Of a stretch of 21,534 bases of DNA, positions 10,159-21,534 are shown piece by piece. The DNA is from a virus. Location of the stretch: positions 1 through 21,534 of the IMG/VR virus record IMGVR_UViG_3300026130_000027, one strand, 5' to 3'. Every line of letters begins with the position of its first letter. Positions within the stretch are counted from its first letter, which is position 1. The position numbers and the translations under genes were made by a program. Under the pieces are notes generated by a model. The model was not told the origin of the DNA and did not search any database. It saw only the letters and a list, made by a program, of their open reading frames with translations.

Positions 10159-10436
10159 TTTAAGCTATCTAAGAAATCACCAAGATTAATATTGTTTTGA
10201 ATATTAGTTTGATTACTATCTTTTTTATCACTCAAAAGTTCTCTTATCTCTTTTATAGCTTTTAGTTGTGTGTCTTCATTCTCAGCAGATAAAGCTAATT
10301 GATTTAGTTTGTTTAAAACATTGTCAATCTTATCACCAAAAAACTCCTTACTGTATTCTTGTATTCCTTTTTCTGCTAAATAATTACTAACATTCTTAGC
10401 AATATCTTGTTTGATTAACTCTTTTTTATCGCTCAT
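10155..10436 (-). CDS. Probable terminase small subunit
   Basis: A 93-residue charged, helical protein with no motif I can name securely. The call rests on position: its stop overlaps the start of the large terminase (ATGA), the normal place for the DNA-recognition subunit. A central helix-rich region (NVLNKLNQLALSAENEDTQLKAIKEIRELL, about residues 39-68) resembles the oligomerisation segment of small terminases, and the C-terminus NLGDFLDSLK is a plausible docking peptide for the large subunit. The helix-turn-helix protein just upstream could instead be, or contribute to, DNA recognition. It is smaller than most small subunits (usually 130-180 residues), so DNA binding may be split across the two genes. 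Confidence 0.5.
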   Translation of the reverse strand: MSDKKELIKQDIAKNVSNYLAEKGIQEYSKEFFGDKIDNVLNKLNQLALSAENEDTQLKAIKEIRELLSDKKDSNQTNIQNNINLGDFLDSLK

Positions 10437-10669
10437 TAGTGAATATCGATTATTTGCATTTTACGATCATATTCTTCTTTGAAAGCTCTTTGTAACTCTA
10501 CTAATATTTGACTAAATCTGTATTGTGGCGCCCTTCCCTTTTTTTCCCAATTTCTAATTTGAACAGTTGAAACACCAGCTAAATTGGCTAATTGAGTCTT
10601 ATTTATCTTTAAATTCTGCATTAATTGATATACTTTATCTATATCAACAAAATCACAATGTTTATTCAT
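10436..10669 (-). CDS. Helix-turn-helix DNA-binding protein
   Basis: A 77-residue protein with a clear helix-turn-helix at about residues 20-45: INKTQLANLAGVSTVQIRNW, followed by EKKGRAP, the usual XRE/Cro-type sequence with Q-L-A, G-V-S and I-R-N-W-E. The remaining C-terminus is a helix (FSQILVELQRAFKEEYDRK). It starts within the end of the PEGA lipoprotein gene and its stop overlaps the start of the next gene by one base (TAATG). Two roles are plausible: a regulator of the late operon, acting at the divergent region, or part of the packaging-site recognition complex given the adjacent terminase genes. The sequence does not decide between them. Confidence 0.7.
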   Translation of the reverse strand: MNKHCDFVDIDKVYQLMQNLKINKTQLANLAGVSTVQIRNWEKKGRAPQYRFSQILVELQRAFKEEYDRKMQIIDIH

Positions 10670-11402: not shown

Positions 11403-11526
11403 AAAAAAAAAGAGTAAAAAAAAATGTGATTGTTGTTTTGAGTCAACTTGTAAGATTTTCTTACTAGTTGCTAGTTTAGAGATTTACTTTTGACCGCTCG
11501 CGCCAATTGCTCGCTAATGTCAAAAG

Positions 11527-11557
11527 ATTATACGCTTTCAGCGGGACACTCTTGCAA
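11527..11557 (-). promoter_or_regulatory. Weak candidate promoter for the virion operon
   Basis: On the minus strand TTGCAA (11557-11552) is followed after 19 bases by a perfect TATAAT (11532-11527). The spacing is longer than ideal. The predicted start falls at about 11520, inside the inverted repeat TTTTGAC/GTCAAAA (11488-11525), which would then act as an operator at the transcription start. It is the only full TATAAT on the minus strand between the hairpin at 11671 and the first gene. Confidence 0.3.
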
Positions 11558-11661
11558 ATTCTAGTGTAGCATCCCTGCTAGCGCTTACCCCCAAACCCCC
11601 AAATTTCTGGGTTTTGTCAAGTCTTTTTTTTTTAATTTATTTTGTCAATAGTTTTTTTTAT

Positions 11662-11700
11662 AAAAAAAAATCCTCTTGCAATTGGCAGACTGCAAGAGGA
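11662..11700 (-). terminator. Intrinsic terminator on the minus strand, upstream of the virion operon
   Basis: A perfect 10-base-pair stem, TCCTCTTGCA with TGCAAGAGGA, and a 10-base loop, followed on the minus strand by nine T residues (11670-11662). This is the best intrinsic terminator in the window. On the plus strand the stem is followed by AAGGAAG, so it does not act in that direction. It would stop any leftward transcript starting near 11725 after about 60 nucleotides, before reaching the first virion gene. Confidence 0.7.
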
Positions 11701-11731
11701 AAGGAAGTAAATAAATGTGTATTTAAAAAAA

Positions 11732-11760
11732 TATAATCAATATTTTGTTTATTTTGTCAA
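11732..11760 (-). promoter_or_regulatory. Candidate leftward promoter
   Basis: A perfect TTGACA (11760-11755) is followed after 17 bases by ATTATA (11737-11732), with TATATT two bases further on. A transcript from here would start near 11725 and meet the terminator at 11700-11662 almost at once. That implies either a short RNA or an attenuated (antiterminator-dependent) late promoter. Confidence 0.5.
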
Positions 11761-11859
11761 TAACTTTTTTATTTATCATCTTACCAACGCCAGCAATATG
11801 ATCTCAACTCTTGATTTATCTAGCTTGAAAAATAATTTAAAAATAATTGTAATTTTTTG

Positions 11860-11888
11860 TTGACAAATAAAATCATTGGTGCAATACT
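11860..11888 (+). promoter_or_regulatory. Early rightward promoter
   Basis: TTGACA at 11860-11865, a 17-base spacer, then AATACT at 11883-11888. This is the best plus-strand sigma-70-type promoter before the first early gene, placing the start at about 11895 and leaving a 40-base A/T-rich leader before the ATG at 11936. Confidence 0.6.
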
Positions 11889-11935
11889 GAGTTTATCACA
11901 CAAACAAACAATATCAATTAAATATTATAAATACT

Positions 11936-12310
11936 ATGACTAACCAAGAAAAAAATAGACAAGATTATCAAGTTTTAAATAACTTAGCAAAACAAGCTAG
12001 AGAATTAAAAGATTTAGCTATTATGCGAGCAAGCCCATTAGAAGCAGTTACTTTAATGGAAAAGCCCTTAAACTTTTTTATTAAATCAATCTACAATCTA
12101 CAAAATAAGGAATTAGACACTTTTCTTGGCTGGAAAAAGAAAGGCTACAAAGTAAAAAAAGGTGAAAAAGGTTATTTATTCTTTAGTACGCCCAAAACTT
12201 TCAAAAAAGAAATTGAAAACACAAAAGGCGAAAAAGAGCAAATAAAGTTTAATAGATTTTGTAAATGCTTTTTATTCTCAATCGACCAAGTCGAACAAAC
12301 AAAACATTAA
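11936..12310 (+). CDS. ArdC-like N-terminal (ssDNA-binding) domain protein, probable antirestriction
   Basis: A 124-residue protein, first gene of the early arm. Residues about 80-121 contain LDTFLGWKKKGYKVKKGEKG followed by a beta strand (YLFF), a variable loop and a strand ending FLFSIDQVE. This order (W-x-x-x-G-x-x-V-x-K-G-E-K, then F-x-x-x-Q-V-E) is that of the ArdC N-terminal single-stranded-DNA-binding domain found in plasmid antirestriction proteins. The C-terminal peptidase-like domain of full ArdC is absent. Being transcribed first fits a job of protecting incoming DNA from host defence, as other phages do with their first genes; the role is inferred. It has no Shine-Dalgarno, only the A-rich leader ending AAATACT. 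Confidence 0.6.
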   Translation: MTNQEKNRQDYQVLNNLAKQARELKDLAIMRASPLEAVTLMEKPLNFFIKSIYNLQNKELDTFLGWKKKGYKVKKGEKGYLFFSTPKTFKKEIENTKGEKEQIKFNRFCKCFLFSIDQVEQTKH

Positions 12311-12515: not shown

Positions 12516-12686
12516 ATGACAACATACACAACCAAAAAAGGCGATAAATCTAAAATATTAAGCTTCAGGCTTGATGTTGAAGTTATTCGCAAACTTAACA
12601 AACTTAAAAAACATTACAAATATCTAACAGTTAAGGGCATTATTGCTAAACTGATTGAAGATGATTATAGCAACTTAAATAAATAA
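12516..12686 (+). CDS. Ribbon-helix-helix DNA-binding protein
   Basis: A 56-residue protein. I chose the ATG at 12516 rather than an upstream in-frame ATG at 12438, because the latter overlaps the preceding small gene and the shorter form has the normal RHH layout. A basic N-terminus leads to the strand KILSFRLDVEV, then two helices IRKLNKLKKHYK and TVKGIIAKLIEDDY, as in Arc/CopG-type repressors. Such proteins bind DNA as dimers or larger oligomers and often regulate their own operons, or pair with toxins; no toxin gene is recognised next to it. A second RHH gene sits at 21348. Confidence 0.65.
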   Translation: MTTYTTKKGDKSKILSFRLDVEVIRKLNKLKKHYKYLTVKGIIAKLIEDDYSNLNK

Positions 12687-12691
12687 ATAAT

Positions 12692-12991
12692 ATGAAATAT
12701 AAGAAAATAATAAACTCAAATAAAGAAGATTTAGAAAAAAAATATCCGTGGCTTAAAGATGCAGATTTCCGAAATGCAATTATTTGTGATAAAGGGCCAT
12801 ATATAACTTGGGAAAATGGTACTTGGAAAGGTGGCACTTGGAAAGATGGTATTTGGAAAGATGGTATTTGGGAATATGGTATTTGGAAAGATGGTATTTG
12901 GGAAGGTGGTCAAATGTGGAACAACTTAGATCAAGAATATCAAGAAGTTACACAAAAAGAAAATAATAAATTTTTTAAACTAAACAAATAA
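12692..12991 (+). CDS. Trp-rich pentapeptide-repeat protein
   Basis: A 99-residue protein with three parts: a charged N-terminus (about 38 residues, with PWLKDADFRNAI), seven perfect-length units of the pattern [T/I]-W-[K/E]-x-G at residues 39-73, and a charged Gln/Glu/Lys-rich C-terminus. The unit matches no classic pentapeptide repeat (A-[D/N]-L-x-x), but a regular five-residue period with Trp and Gly could form a beta-solenoid-like or stacked-strand rod. The gene begins 6 bases after the RHH stop. Function unknown. The protein call is strong because the repeats stay in frame and are followed by a normal stop. Confidence 0.7.
   Translation: MKYKKIINSNKEDLEKKYPWLKDADFRNAIICDKGPYITWENGTWKGGTWKDGIWKDGIWEYGIWKDGIWEGGQMWNNLDQEYQEVTQKENNKFFKLNK
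12806..12910 (+). repeat. Seven tandem 15-base coding repeats
   Basis: Seven consecutive 15-base units of the form ATTTGGAAAGATGGT with a few changes, encoding TWENG, TWKGG, TWKDG, IWKDG, IWEYG, IWKDG and IWEGG. Two units (12851-12865 and 12881-12895) are identical. Near identity at the DNA level points to recent expansion or contraction by slippage or recombination. Confidence 0.9.
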
Positions 12992-17904: not shown

Positions 17905-17940
17905 TTGACTATTATGTTTATAATTGTTAATATTTAACAA
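17905..17940 (+). promoter_or_regulatory. Promoter with palindromic operator for the recombination operon
   Basis: TTGACT (17905-17910), a 17-base spacer, and TAATAT (17928-17933). A perfect palindrome TTGTTAA-TAT-TTAACAA (17924-17940) covers the -10 box, the classic position for a repressor site. The same arrangement recurs at 21293, upstream of a ribbon-helix-helix gene. Confidence 0.6.
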
Positions 17941-17958
17941 TAACCAAAAACAAACTAT

Positions 17959-17996
17959 AACTAAATACTTAAATACTAACTAAATACTTAAATACT
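17959..17996 (+). repeat. Perfect 19-base tandem duplication in a 5' leader
   Basis: AACTAAATACTTAAATACT occurs twice without interruption and ends directly at the ATG at 17997. Each unit itself contains two AAATACT elements, the same heptamer that precedes several other early start codons. It may set translation efficiency or be a product of slippage. Confidence 0.85.
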
Positions 17997-18176
17997 ATGA
18001 AAGCACAATACACTAGATTCGAACTAGACGATCTAAAGCAAATTAGCAAAATGATTGACAACAAAAATATCACTTCTTTTGAAGCCCTACAATCAGCTTA
18101 CAAAATAGCTCATTTAATGGAAGAGAACGCCAAAGAGCGCACGCAAAGACAATCAACTTATTATTGGGGAAAATAA
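17997..18176 (+). CDS. Unknown 59-residue protein, first of the recombination operon
   Basis: A 59-residue charged helical protein (QYTRFELDDLKQISKMIDNK, then FEALQSAYKIAHLMEE and a C-terminal RTQRQSTYYWGK). It is translated from an ATG directly after the 19-base tandem repeat. Its stop overlaps the next start by one base (TAATG), which strongly supports it as a real gene. No family recognised; the operon position, right after the operator, would fit a small regulator, but no DNA-binding motif is evident. Confidence 0.7.
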   Translation: MKAQYTRFELDDLKQISKMIDNKNITSFEALQSAYKIAHLMEENAKERTQRQSTYYWGK

Positions 18177-18469
18177 TGTATTGGGTAATAGAAACTTGCG
18201 AGGGAGATTTTGAAGCTACTAAACTAAAAAGTGCTATAAATTTATTGCTTAATAACTGTGTAGAAAATCAACAACCTTCTTATATAACCGATGTTTACGC
18301 TGTAATTAATTATTATGGTGATGACAAAGAAAGGTTGTTATCAACTGCTTGGATTAATAAAATACAAGATGGCGTAGATAAAGAATATAAAGTAAGGCTT
18401 AAAGAATACAAGCAAGAAATAAAAGCTCAAAAAGAATTAGAAAGCGATTACTGGGAGGGTAGGTTATGA
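18176..18469 (+). CDS. Unknown 97-residue protein
   Basis: I chose the ATG at 18176, which overlaps the previous stop (TAATG); an upstream in-frame TTG at 18164 would lie inside the preceding gene. The protein begins MYWVIETCEGDFEATKLKSA and ends with a charged helix (KEYKVRLKEYKQEIKAQKEL). The N-terminal half looks like alternating strand and helix; the C-terminal half is coiled-coil-like. No family recognised. Its end overlaps the next gene by 4 bases, and GGGAGG sits just before that start. Confidence 0.6.
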   Translation: MYWVIETCEGDFEATKLKSAINLLLNNCVENQQPSYITDVYAVINYYGDDKERLLSTAWINKIQDGVDKEYKVRLKEYKQEIKAQKELESDYWEGRL

Positions 18470-18726
18470 ACGATTTAGATAATTTTATGCAACAAGAGGA
18501 AAAAATATTTAAGCCAATTTTACAAAAAGCAATTGATGATGAGTCATATATTTATAACTTGATCAATAAAAAAGATAAATCACAGGAAGAGGAAGAGTTT
18601 TGCAAGGCTTTTAGTCAAGCTTGTGATGAAATGTCTTTTGGAACAGGTTTGCACCCAAACGATGATTTAGAGCAAATTCAAGAAATGGTTTTAGAAAGCT
18701 ATTTTGAAAGATATAATATTAATTAA
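18466..18726 (+). CDS. Unknown acidic 86-residue protein
   Basis: An acidic, helical protein (about a quarter Asp and Glu) with one Gly-rich turn (MSFGTGLHPNDD, about residues 58-69). Its start has a good ribosome-binding site (GGGAGGGTAGG shortly before the ATG), rare in this arm. No family recognised. High acidity and small size would suit a DNA mimic or a protein-binding inhibitor, but that is speculation. It precedes the annealing protein gene by 13 bases. Confidence 0.55.
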   Translation: MNDLDNFMQQEEKIFKPILQKAIDDESYIYNLINKKDKSQEEEEFCKAFSQACDEMSFGTGLHPNDDLEQIQEMVLESYFERYNIN

Positions 18727-18739
18727 AACAATAGAGACA

Positions 18740-19627
18740 ATGACAAACGAAGTAACGATTGTAAATTTTACAGAGGATCAAGTTAAATTAATTAAGTCAC
18801 AGATTGCTCCAAAAGCAACAAATGATGAATTACAATTATTTTTGTATCAAGCAAAAAGAACAGGCTTAGACCCGCTTACTCGTCAGATTTATGCTATACA
18901 TAGAAATGTAAAAGAAAAAGAATATGGCAGAGATGTTTGGAAGCAAAAAATGTCAATCCAAACTTCTATTGATGGTTTTAGAGTTATTGCAGAAAGGAGC
19001 GGTGATTATGCTGGTCAAGACGAGCCTGTTTTTATTGAAAAAGACGGCAAGTTAATTTCGTGCAAAATAACAGTTTATCGTTTTCGTGGTGATACTCGCT
19101 ATCCAGCGGCGGTCGGTGTTGCCTATTGGACAGAATATTGCCAAACTGATAATCAAGGGAATCCTACTCCAATGTGGAAAAGAATGCCACACACAATGCT
19201 TGCTAAAGTTGCAGAAGCACTAGCATTAAGAAAGGCTTATCCGCAAGATTTAAGTGGTCTTTATACTGGCGATGAAATGACACAAGCAGATGAACCGCAA
19301 GCAGATGAACCAAAAGAGCCTGTTGATGTAAAGCCTAACTTTTTTAAAGAGCCAACAGGGGCAATGGCTAATATTGCAAACGGAGCTAGCGAAGATATGA
19401 AGCTAAAAGCCGAAGAGAAAAGGCTTAATGATTTAAAAACTTCTTTGGCTAGCATGGGAAGTGTTGCAGAAATAGATGGTTATCTTGAAGAAGCACAGAC
19501 TACTAAAGGCAATACTAAAACAAGAATGCAAATATTAAAAACAATGAGTGAAGTTAATGTTTCGCAAGCACTGCTAATAATCAAAAATGCTAAGTTAGCA
19601 GTTGACCCTGAATATAAGGGGGAGTAA
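18740..19627 (+). CDS. Bet/RecT-family single-strand annealing protein
   Basis: A 295-residue protein, counting from the ATG at 18740; a longer in-frame TTG form starting at 18704 would overlap the previous gene. The Bet core is clear: IAPKATNDELQLFLYQAKRT (about residues 22-41), GLDPLTRQIYAI (42-53), SIQTSIDGFRVIAERSGDYAGQ (72-93), then W-x-x-x-M-P-x-x-M-L-A-K-V-A-E-A-L-A-L-R-K-A-x-P (146-168) and GLYTGDEM. These are hallmarks of lambda Bet relatives, which anneal complementary single strands. A repeated Ala-Asp-Glu-Pro linker (181-195) leads to a variable helical C-terminus. No partner exonuclease is recognised in the window. Confidence 0.9.
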   Translation: MTNEVTIVNFTEDQVKLIKSQIAPKATNDELQLFLYQAKRTGLDPLTRQIYAIHRNVKEKEYGRDVWKQKMSIQTSIDGFRVIAERSGDYAGQDEPVFIEKDGKLISCKITVYRFRGDTRYPAAVGVAYWTEYCQTDNQGNPTPMWKRMPHTMLAKVAEALALRKAYPQDLSGLYTGDEMTQADEPQADEPKEPVDVKPNFFKEPTGAMANIANGASEDMKLKAEEKRLNDLKTSLASMGSVAEIDGYLEEAQTTKGNTKTRMQILKTMSEVNVSQALLIIKNAKLAVDPEYKGE

Positions 19628-19710
19628 TGACTAAAGAAGTATTAAAAACCTACTACAAAGCCGTTAATGCAATGATTGAGGAGCTTTTAAAAGAAAGCGA
19701 GATAGTATGA
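19627..19710 (+). CDS. Tiny gene coupled between the annealing protein and the next gene (27 residues)
   Basis: A 27-residue amphipathic helical peptide (TKEVLKTYYKAVNAMIEELL after Met). Its start overlaps the annealing-protein stop (TAATG) and its stop overlaps the next start (ATGA), with GGGGGAG just upstream for ribosome binding. Overlaps at both ends are hard to explain unless it is translated. It may be a small partner of the annealing protein, or simply keeps ribosomes moving along the operon. Confidence 0.6.
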   Translation: MTKEVLKTYYKAVNAMIEELLKESEIV

Positions 19711-20255
19711 AAACAATACACTTTGATTTTAATAACCCATCTTGCCTTAGCGAAAAGCAAAAAGAGGTTAGTCTTAACATTGTTGATCGCTTGGAAGCTA
19801 AAAAGAATTTTAGTATAATATTTGATGACAATGAAAGCAAAACATTGCAACAATTAAGGGGTATTCATAAGCTTTGTGATTTGTTAGCTAAAAGATACAC
19901 AGAGACTCAAGGCAGGTTCTTTAGTAGGGAAATGGCTAAAGACTCAATTAAGTTTAAATTTGACTACTTACGCTTTGCTAATGAAGAAGAAGCTTTCAAG
20001 GAAGCGATAAAGCTAAGGGCTGAGGGGTTAAGGATTGGCAAGAAAATGACTATCAAGCAATTTAATTTCTTGGTGGATAAATTACAAAAAACTTTATTTG
20101 TGCCTAGAAGTTTTAAAGATGCTAGCAAAGAGGAAATGATGGGGCTTATTGATAAGATTGAGCAATTTGCAAATGATATGGGTTGGCACGAAGTTAAACT
20201 TGAGACTAGAGAAAAACAAGAAATGATTAATTATTATGAAAAAAATGGAAAATAA
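19707..20255 (+). CDS. Possible NinB-like recombination protein
   Basis: A 182-residue protein. After a short beta-like start (TIHFDFNNPSCLSEKQK) comes TLQQLRGIHKLCDLLAKRYT (about residues 47-66), resembling the Q-x-x-x-x-H-x-L-x-x-x-L-A helix of NinB-type phage proteins, which bind DNA and assist recombination. A long helical middle and MTIKQFNFLVDKLQKTLF (about 114-131) precede a C-terminus MGWHEVKLE. The neighbouring annealing protein gene supports a recombination role, but the match is by general pattern only, so it may be an unrelated helical protein. The last 20 bases overlap the start of the following gene. Confidence 0.45.
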   Translation: MKTIHFDFNNPSCLSEKQKEVSLNIVDRLEAKKNFSIIFDDNESKTLQQLRGIHKLCDLLAKRYTETQGRFFSREMAKDSIKFKFDYLRFANEEEAFKEAIKLRAEGLRIGKKMTIKQFNFLVDKLQKTLFVPRSFKDASKEEMMGLIDKIEQFANDMGWHEVKLETREKQEMINYYEKNGK

Positions 20256-20664
20256 ATTAGAGTTTGAACACGAAAAACACAGCTGTTTTGAGAAATGGAG
20301 ATTGACTTATTATAAAGCAAAAAAAGTCCCTTGCTCTGATAAAGAAAAAGCAATGTACGGGGTAGATTATAAATACGAAAAAGCTCCCGAAGAATATGTA
20401 ATAATAATTTATACAGATATTTTGTCCGATTCAAGGCAAGAAGTTTATTGTGTAAGTTCATGGGCTGATTCATATCCGCTTAAAGGTGAAAGAATATTTA
20501 GTTTTTTAAATTTAGAAAACGCTAAAAGAGTAGCATTGTGTATAGCAAAATGCGACATAGCTGGTATAGATATTGAATTTGATAAATTAAACTCAGAAGA
20601 GTTTGATTTATATTTAACAACCAAAGAAAAGGAATTAGAGGAATATGAAAACAATGGAAAATAA
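20236..20664 (+). CDS. Tandem paralogue A of an unknown 140-150-residue family
   Basis: A 142-residue protein sharing clear blocks with the next gene: MENKLEF at the start, KK(V/I)PC, YGVDYKYE, L-x-N-A-K-R-x-x-L-C-I-A-K-C-D-x-A-x-I-D and KEKELEEYE at the end. Two Cys in CIAKC and another in VPC are kept in both copies, which suggests structural or metal-binding use. No known family comes to mind. An in-frame second ATG (20245) is an alternative start. Its first 20 bases lie within the end of the preceding gene, and its last 20 within the start of its paralogue, in the same geometry. Confidence 0.65.
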   Translation: MKKMENKLEFEHEKHSCFEKWRLTYYKAKKVPCSDKEKAMYGVDYKYEKAPEEYVIIIYTDILSDSRQEVYCVSSWADSYPLKGERIFSFLNLENAKRVALCIAKCDIAGIDIEFDKLNSEEFDLYLTTKEKELEEYENNGK

Positions 20665-21103
20665 ATTAGAATTTAAGCAAATATTCAATCGTTTGACTAA
20701 GGAAAAATTACCAGCTTGGGAATTGATTTATTCAAAAGAAAAAAAAATACCTTGTACTAAAGAAGAAAAAAGGATTTACGGAGTAAGTTATAAATACGAA
20801 AGTGATATTCAAGAGTGTTATATACGCATATGGGAAAACATATTAATAGATTCAAAGTCTCTTATATATGAGTTTTATAGCATTCGTACTAGTCAGTATG
20901 ATATTAGGACTAATTTTATAAGTCCTCAAATATATTGCTCAAACTTAGATAATGCTAAAAGGATGGGATTGTGTATAGCAAAATGCGATTTAGCTGATAT
21001 AGATCTTGATCTTGACAACTTAAGCAAAAAAACTTGTTACTCGGATATAATAGCCAAAGAAAAGGAGTTAGAGGAATATGAGGCTCTTTATAAAAAACCC
21101 TAA
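20645..21103 (+). CDS. Tandem paralogue B of the same unknown family
   Basis: A 152-residue protein related to its upstream neighbour over its whole length (MENKLEF, KKIPCTKEEKRIYGVSYKYE, LDNAKRMGLCIAKCDLADID, AKEKELEEYE). It has diverged by about half of its positions, so the duplication is not recent, and it is longer in the middle (a Tyr/Ile/Ser-rich insert around residues 75-100). An AGAGGAAT sequence before the ATG, which also encodes the shared EEYE end of copy A, provides a ribosome-binding site. The same AAAGGA-x-TTAGAGGAATATG arrangement recurs before the next gene at 21078. Function unknown. Confidence 0.65.
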   Translation: MKTMENKLEFKQIFNRLTKEKLPAWELIYSKEKKIPCTKEEKRIYGVSYKYESDIQECYIRIWENILIDSKSLIYEFYSIRTSQYDIRTNFISPQIYCSNLDNAKRMGLCIAKCDLADIDLDLDNLSKKTCYSDIIAKEKELEEYEALYKKP

Positions 21104-21296
21104 CAACTGCTTAGATTGTGGCAGTAAGGAAGTACAAGAAGAGTGTTTTGATTATAGAAAGTCGGCTCATTACTTTTGCAAAGAGTGTTACGAGATGAAG
21201 ATTTGTAATAAGAAGAAGGGATTTACCTTTGTTTTGTTTAGCAGGGTGATGAAATTGAAGCCAAAAAATAATTGGATTATTAATAAAATATATTGA
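21078..21296 (+). CDS. Small zinc-ribbon protein
   Basis: A 72-residue protein with a zinc ribbon: C11-L-D-C14 and C34-K-E-C37, plus Cys 23 and Cys 43. A basic C-terminal half (MKICNKKKGFTFVLFSRVMK, then KPKNNW) could contact nucleic acid. The start lies inside the end of paralogue B and is preceded by AAAGGAGTTAGAGGAAT, a strong ribosome-binding site. No family recognised; it is unlike the zinc ribbon at 14921 beyond the C-x-x-C pairs. Confidence 0.6.
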   Translation: MRLFIKNPNNCLDCGSKEVQEECFDYRKSAHYFCKECYEMKICNKKKGFTFVLFSRVMKLKPKNNWIINKIY

Positions 21297-21340
21297 CTAT
21301 TAACAATTAATGTTGTTAAATATTAACTATTATTAACATA
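21293..21340 (+). promoter_or_regulatory. Promoter-operator related to the one at 17905
   Basis: TTGACTATTA (21293-21302) repeats the first 10 bases of the promoter at 17905. TTGTTAAATATTAAC (21313-21327) matches the inverse of the 17905 palindrome at 15 positions, 20 bases from the -35 against 19 in the other copy. TTAACAA (21300-21306) with TTGTTAA (21313-21319) forms an extra inverted pair, and TATTAAC recurs at 21331-21337. The -10 box is weak (TTAAAT after 17 bases). Confidence 0.5.
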
Positions 21341-21347
21341 ACTTATT

Positions 21348-21534
21348 ATGAATAAAATATTTTCAATTAACATAACAGAAAACCAATATACTTTGGTTAG
21401 TAGGATTGCCAAGAAGCAACATAGGAGTCTTAGCTCTATTATTAGGCAACTTCTTGATGCTTATATTGAAGATTATATTGATGCTGAGCAGGCTGAAAAA
21501 GTTATGAAAGATATTAAAGAAGGTAAAACGGATT
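21348..21534 (+). CDS. Ribbon-helix-helix DNA-binding protein, partial (C-terminus off the window)
   Basis: I read this frame by hand; 62 codons are present before the right edge. It begins NKIFSINITENQYTLVSRIA, then KKQHRSLSSIIRQLLDAYIE. A beta strand (FSINIT), a helix and S-L-S-S-I-I-R-Q-L-L-D form the Arc/CopG ribbon-helix-helix layout. A repressor or antitoxin role is usual for the fold. Its promoter carries a copy of the operator seen upstream of the recombination operon, so it is a natural candidate for the protein that binds both, controlling itself and that operon. The link is inference. Confidence 0.65.
   Translation, partial: MNKIFSINITENQYTLVSRIAKKQHRSLSSIIRQLLDAYIEDYIDAEQAEKVMKDIKEGKTD

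Follow-up and report, generated by a model that had tools for sequence, protein, structure and literature searches.

A mirrored 31-bp operator at two predicted promoters of an uncultured phage: candidate control of a recT operon by a small ribbon-helix-helix protein

Introduction

Why would one sequence element stand at two distant predicted promoters of a phage, one before a gene for a small putative DNA-binding protein and the other before an operon for recombination proteins? This question is raised by the window, a 21,534-nucleotide (21.5 kb) stretch of viral DNA from the IMG/VR record IMGVR_UViG_3300026130_000027, in which an operator at the promoter of a recT operon (P1) recurs in mirrored form at the promoter (P2) of a gene for a 62-aa ribbon-helix-helix (RHH) protein. 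An earlier note, made from the sequence alone, had proposed that the RHH protein controls both. The window matches a segment of a 34,666-bp IMG/VR contig (L023, L024) at 100% identity, its + strand being the - strand of contig L023, and a third record, 3300009124_001788 (L025, 10 kb), has 97-99.6% identity to it over the shared parts.

Results and Discussion

Two predicted promoters share one element in opposite orientations

The features on which the argument turns are the following:

17905..17933, + strand: putative promoter P1, with -35 TTGACT at 17905-17910, a 17-nt spacer, -10 TAATAT at 17928-17933 and TG before the -10
17912..17942, + strand: operator copy 1, TTATGTTTATAATTGTTAATATTTAACAATA, holding a perfect palindrome that covers the P1 -10
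21293..21322, + strand: putative promoter P2, with -35 TTGACT at 21293-21298 and -10 TTAAAT or TAAATA after 17 or 18 nt
21299..21307, + strand: additional half-site ATTAACAAT in the P2 spacer
21311..21341, - strand: operator copy 2, inverted, reading TTATGTTAATAATAGTTAATATTTAACAACA on the - strand, with its palindromic core at 21313-21329
21348..21534, + strand: RHH gene, 62 aa, the last stop-codon bases lying beyond the window end (complete at L023:9382-9570, - strand)

As the earlier note had located them, TTGACTATTA starts at 17905 and 21293, and TTGTTAA begins 19 and 20 bases further on, at 17924 and 21313. Its operator formula, TTGTTAA-x-TATT-x-AAC, has two mismatches at each site and gives way to a common core of TTGTTAA-NNN-TTAAC. 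Site 1 (17923-17941) reads ATTGTTAA-TAT-TTAACAAT, a perfect 8+8 palindrome, and site 2 (21313-21329) reads TTGTTAA-ATA-TTAACTA, with halves that match at 6/7 positions; the description of the halves as near-perfect inverse copies was correct. The match between the sites is real and longer than had been claimed, covering 31 bp with 28/31 identical (joint pattern TTATGTTWATAATWGTTAATATTTAACAAYA). It does not run in the direct orientation that had been supposed: the copies are inverted, 17912-17942 on the + strand corresponding to 21311-21341 on the - strand.

The window is 68% A+T, a composition that would favor chance similarity in intergenic DNA. We compared all of its 31-mers against each other, which is a fairer test than a search with a degenerate (IUPAC) pattern derived from both sites themselves. 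The operator pair ranked best apart from tandem paralogous genes at 20236/20645, whose duplication is the sole source of equally or more similar 31-mers. In 12 dinucleotide shuffles the best 31-mer pair peaked at 24-25/31 versus the 28/31 observed, and the local-alignment score of the operator pair was 48 versus at most 40 for 400 random 45-mers from the same window. The IUPAC 31-mer, allowing up to three mismatches, had exactly two matches in the window and none in 100 shuffles. These shuffle and random-45-mer tests already refute chance similarity, to which we assign a negligible probability.

The element is also specific to this phage. With up to one mismatch, TTGTTAANNNTTAACAA occurs at both sites and nowhere else in the window, and TGTTAANNNTTAACA at both sites and nowhere else in the 34.7-kb record; the many random genomic copies that the earlier note had named as telling against its proposal were not found. 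Among 2.9 million IMG/VR contigs, a pattern with 20 specified operator bases was found in this phage and one near-identical relative alone, in two copies each. A looser pattern of -35 plus core gave 39 stretches, of which those outside the window phage were unrelated, many lying within recombinase-like coding sequence. The operator match at the two promoters greatly exceeds chance, and the phage record contains no further copy.

Both copies lie over predicted promoter elements. P1 matches the consensus at 9 of 12 positions, its -10 lies inside the palindrome, and its spacer, within operator copy 1, contains a degenerate third half-site, GTTTAT. P2 is the predicted promoter of the RHH gene itself. 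Its spacing was set by analogy with P1, and its weak -10, which the promoter scan did not list, sits within the palindrome core. Four half-sites are present here (21300-21306, 21313-21319, 21323-21329 and 21333-21339); nowhere else in the 34.7-kb record do four TTAAC cores cluster within 40 bases. Palindrome and array together overlap the P2 -10 region. No operator copy accompanies the candidate early promoter located at 11860 (TTGACA-17-AATACT).

A candidate repressor encoded beside one of the sites

The product of the gene directly after P2 belongs to the RHH family. It matches the Pfam models RHH_1 (1.2e-5, 25.5 bits, cut-off 20.5) and DUF6290 (7.6e-7, 29.7 bits, cut-off 27), as well as phrog_4085 (9e-10) and Arc/CopG-like phrogs, and falls below the cut-off of the NCBIfam RelB antitoxin models (NF046040, 34.6 vs 50; NF048017, 31.4 vs 50). 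A single-sequence structure model (pLDDT 76.5) places helices at 11-23 and 28-43 after an extended N-terminus, plus a third helix. The nearest folds in Foldseek were CopG, TacA, SvtR, Arc and RHH domains of toxin-antitoxin antitoxins, none of them at E <= 0.001 and with the strand unassigned in the monomer. The RHH gene is followed by a 135-aa open reading frame (ORF) of unassigned function, a 58-aa ORF and a VRR-NUC nuclease. Since these genes matched no toxin model, the RHH protein would be an orphan if its origin is an antitoxin. For the gene that comes next after the RHH gene, we considered and rejected a single-stranded DNA-binding protein, as family searches gave no support. Just past the RHH stop codon, at L023:9334-9388 (- strand), there is a long hairpin rich in G/C (-25.7 kcal/mol, z -4.1) and lacking a T-run; it falls in the gap before the next ORF and is a possible attenuator or processing site.

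Based on these observations, we consider the 62-aa RHH protein to be, with fair probability, a phage autorepressor that also represses the recT operon; promoter activity, binding and repression are the steps that we infer. The RHH protein is put forward as the ligand because of the position of its gene, the half-site array, the fact that the other predicted regulator has no such site nearby, and parallels with known systems. In this mechanism, RHH dimers would bind TTAAC-type half-sites that recur at intervals of roughly one helical turn, both within the 31-bp operator of P2 and within the inverted copy that lies at P1. By sitting over the -10 regions, the bound dimers would block RNA polymerase, limiting both the synthesis of the RHH protein itself and that of the recT operon. 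If the RHH gene is the last of the P1 unit, repression at P1 would be autoregulation too. The likely early promoter at 11860, having no operator, would stay unrepressed.

Several points weigh against this mechanism. The element is seen in 97-100% identical records alone, which are too similar for phylogenetic footprinting, and its half-sites are spaced by 10 bp, compared with 12 bp for RelB sites. A helix-turn-helix (HTH) dimer could bind the 17-19-bp palindrome equally well. Finally, sigma-70-like matches in this AT-rich region are no commoner than in shuffles, and the promoter activity of P1 and P2 is for that reason deduced from the coincidence of elements.

Other ways to explain the shared element

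The strongest alternative involves a different ligand, with the sites serving as operators of another regulator, either a phage XRE-like HTH protein or a host repressor, and the RHH gene being merely a target. Palindromes of 17-19 bp are typical of HTH dimers, and the window encodes one candidate:

10436-10669, - strand: XRE-like HTH protein, HTH_3 match

The candidacy of this protein is lowered by the lack of an operator copy near its gene or in the divergent region 11403-11935, and the gene itself is part of the terminase block, with matches to models of the terminase small subunit. A host regulator does not readily account for a phage-specific sequence, and the P2 array with its 10-bp direct repeats fits RHH dimers better. 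We regard a different ligand as a serious minority possibility, at perhaps one chance in a handful. A lower probability goes to an activator or middle-promoter box through which a phage transcription factor would time P1 and P2 together. Such a box would suit the presence of TTGACTATTA and the same element at near-equal distance in both promoters, and also the poor P2 -10. However, the element is palindromic, lies over the -10 and has opposite orientations at P1 and P2, all of which fit steric repression better than a directional activator, and no activator candidate was found; we find this explanation improbable.

It is more improbable still that the inverted pair is a structural repeat, marking either the ends of a mobile or invertible 3.4-kb recT cassette or a replication or partition site. 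The inverted copies do flank 17943-21310, and L025 has gained modules nearby, namely an ORF after recT and a TnpB gene before P2. Yet the orientation is the same in all three records, no transposase, invertase or ParA-like gene was recognized between the copies, the palindromic cores lie over promoter elements, and there are two copies only.

The recT operon and its surroundings

The genes downstream of P1 are arranged as follows, ahead of P2 and the RHH gene:

17997..18176, + strand: 59-aa ORF, first after P1, without family match
18176..18469, + strand: 97-aa ORF, second after P1, function unassigned
18466..18726, + strand: 86-aa ORF, third after P1, function unassigned
18737..19627, + strand: RecT-family single-strand annealing protein, fourth gene after P1 (Pfam RecT 2.8e-34; phrog_2780 2.9e-58)
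19707..20255, + strand: NinB/Orf-like recombination mediator, weak match (phrog_72 1.6e-6)
20236..21103, + strand: tandem pair of paralogous ORFs (142 and 152 aa), function unassigned, in the same direction as P1
21078..21296, + strand: 72-aa ORF that contains CxxC motifs and has its stop codon within the P2 -35 region

With RecT and a NinB/Orf-like protein in the P1 operon and site 2 directly before the RHH gene, the placement of the sites before a recombination operon and a DNA-binding gene holds. We found no terminator-like site on the + strand from recT to the RHH gene; therefore, the RHH gene may be transcribed from P1 as well as P2, as the last gene of the P1 unit.

The single-sequence model of the 59-aa product consists of two helices in a hairpin, and we rejected it as a second RHH protein since the model had no RHH match in the PDB. 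Its ORF is preceded by a 19-bp tandem repeat, AACTAAATACTTAAATACT (17957-17996). The motif AAATACT occurs at 11929, 12346 and 12990 and within 17957-17996, directly before an ATG (11936, 12997, 17997) or nearby, and Shine-Dalgarno-like motifs are few in the window phage. The opening codons of the two tandem paralogues are nearly identical. An RNA-hairpin function at P1 was rejected, as the transcript region folds no better than shuffles.

Elsewhere in the window, structural genes occupy the - strand at 1-11.4 kb, and the + strand carries early-type genes (an ArdC-N fragment, a DnaB-like helicase, RecT and the NinB-like gene). The first early gene, at 11936-12310, is a fragment matching the N-terminal domain of the anti-restriction protein ArdC (Pfam 1.2e-4), and an ORF at 12692-12991 contains repeated GIWKDGIW/GTWKGGTW units. 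Another ORF, at 12516-12686, looked RHH-like by eye and was rejected because no such family matched. A non-coding region at L023:7655-7780 may encode a structured RNA on its + strand (z -2.6); this candidate has no Rfam match and adjoins a TTGACA-17-TATATT promoter-like site on the - strand. A search of L023:7000-13200 against Rfam gave no match.

Relatives and a natural comparison

L025 provides a natural comparison at P2. In this record, the position immediately ahead of the P2 -35 has received an IS200/IS605-type TnpB gene that is absent from the window. The P2 region, beginning with this -35 and extending to the start codon, has 0 differences from the window, whereas the RHH coding sequence has 8 substitutions in ~180 bases, mostly synonymous (two codons read as non-synonymous). 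The unchanged P2 region beside the insertion, together with the changed RHH gene, suggests that the RHH gene functions with its promoter and operator as one unit, though the numbers are small. The TnpB gene lies at L025:8591-9796 (guided_TnpB 4.7e-99), with no recognized TnpA among the ORFs listed there. The same record has an extra 107-aa ORF without Pfam match between recT and the NinB-like gene (L025:6524-6847).

Among viral contigs, searches with the RHH, 59-aa, RecT and helicase proteins returned the two near-identical records and no others; two further RHH matches (L007/L008) were rejected because they lie inside a tail-sheath-like gene of an unrelated phage. The RHH and 59-aa proteins had no match in 50,697 phage records, and the RHH protein had no confirmed match in GTDB genomes. 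Methylophilales phage MEP301 has a portal protein with 39.5% identity to the one encoded here, and a search of 48 portal-based relatives' records for the RHH protein gave two weak matches. Upstream of both weakly matching ORFs there was no comparable repeated element (at most 19/25), and the operator element looks lineage-specific because these two distant relatives have RHH genes without a comparable repeat. The operator core was absent from the records of nine portal-based relatives; a core match in L070, a 70% relative, was discounted as it lies inside a capsid-assembly-like gene.

Comparison with known systems

Arc and Mnt of phage P22 are short phage RHH repressors that act at phage promoters. 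The protein described here is likewise a short phage RHH protein, and Arc structures are among its fold matches; the operators and immunity context differ, and sequence similarity is weak and to Arc-like phrogs only. SvtR of the archaeal virus SIRV1, an RHH protein of 6.6 kDa, represses its own promoter and has a few further binding sites in the viral genome, the sites being imperfect inverted repeats (PMC5569661). It resembles the present case as a small virus-encoded RHH protein acting at its own promoter and other viral sites, and its structure (2kel) is among the fold matches. In contrast, SvtR works with an archaeal promoter and host, its main target is the structural gene gp30 rather than a recombination operon, and its gp30 site lies ~80 nt from the TATA box, whereas the window phage's sites overlap the -10.

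Escherichia coli RelB binds relO through [A/T]TGT[A/C]A hexads, its dimers occupying a single face of the DNA (PMC2812701). TTGTTA fits this hexad at 5/6 positions, the RHH protein matches the family model weakly, and both RelB and the window phage have subsite arrays at the regulator's own promoter (PMC2812701). The window phage differs in that the genes coming next matched no toxin model, the 62-aa protein is short at its C-terminus, there are two target promoters, and the repeat is 10 bp instead of 12. In Aca systems, such as aca8 of rudiviruses, one virus-specific regulatory sequence precedes the regulator gene and other early genes (PMC11065993), which parallels the sequence common to the promoters here. 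Aca8, unlike the window phage's RHH protein with its two sites, is described as a winged HTH protein linked to anti-defence genes (PMC11065993).

The principle that viral RHH autorepressors also control other promoters is thus already known, and the earlier note's view of an undescribed circuit holds for this phage and not for the kind. A more specific scenario, which we advance only tentatively and consider rather doubtful, is that a RelB-type antitoxin fold without its toxin was co-opted by the phage as a dedicated regulator of recombination genes, acting at its own promoter and that of recT through one mirrored 31-bp operator and keeping the level of annealing protein by negative feedback. 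The proposed circuit would connect a small RHH repressor with the operon of a RecT annealing protein. It supplies, for an uncultured podovirus-like phage, a regulator-operator pair that is concrete and testable, and the RHH protein and its operator could serve as a compact repressor/operator set.

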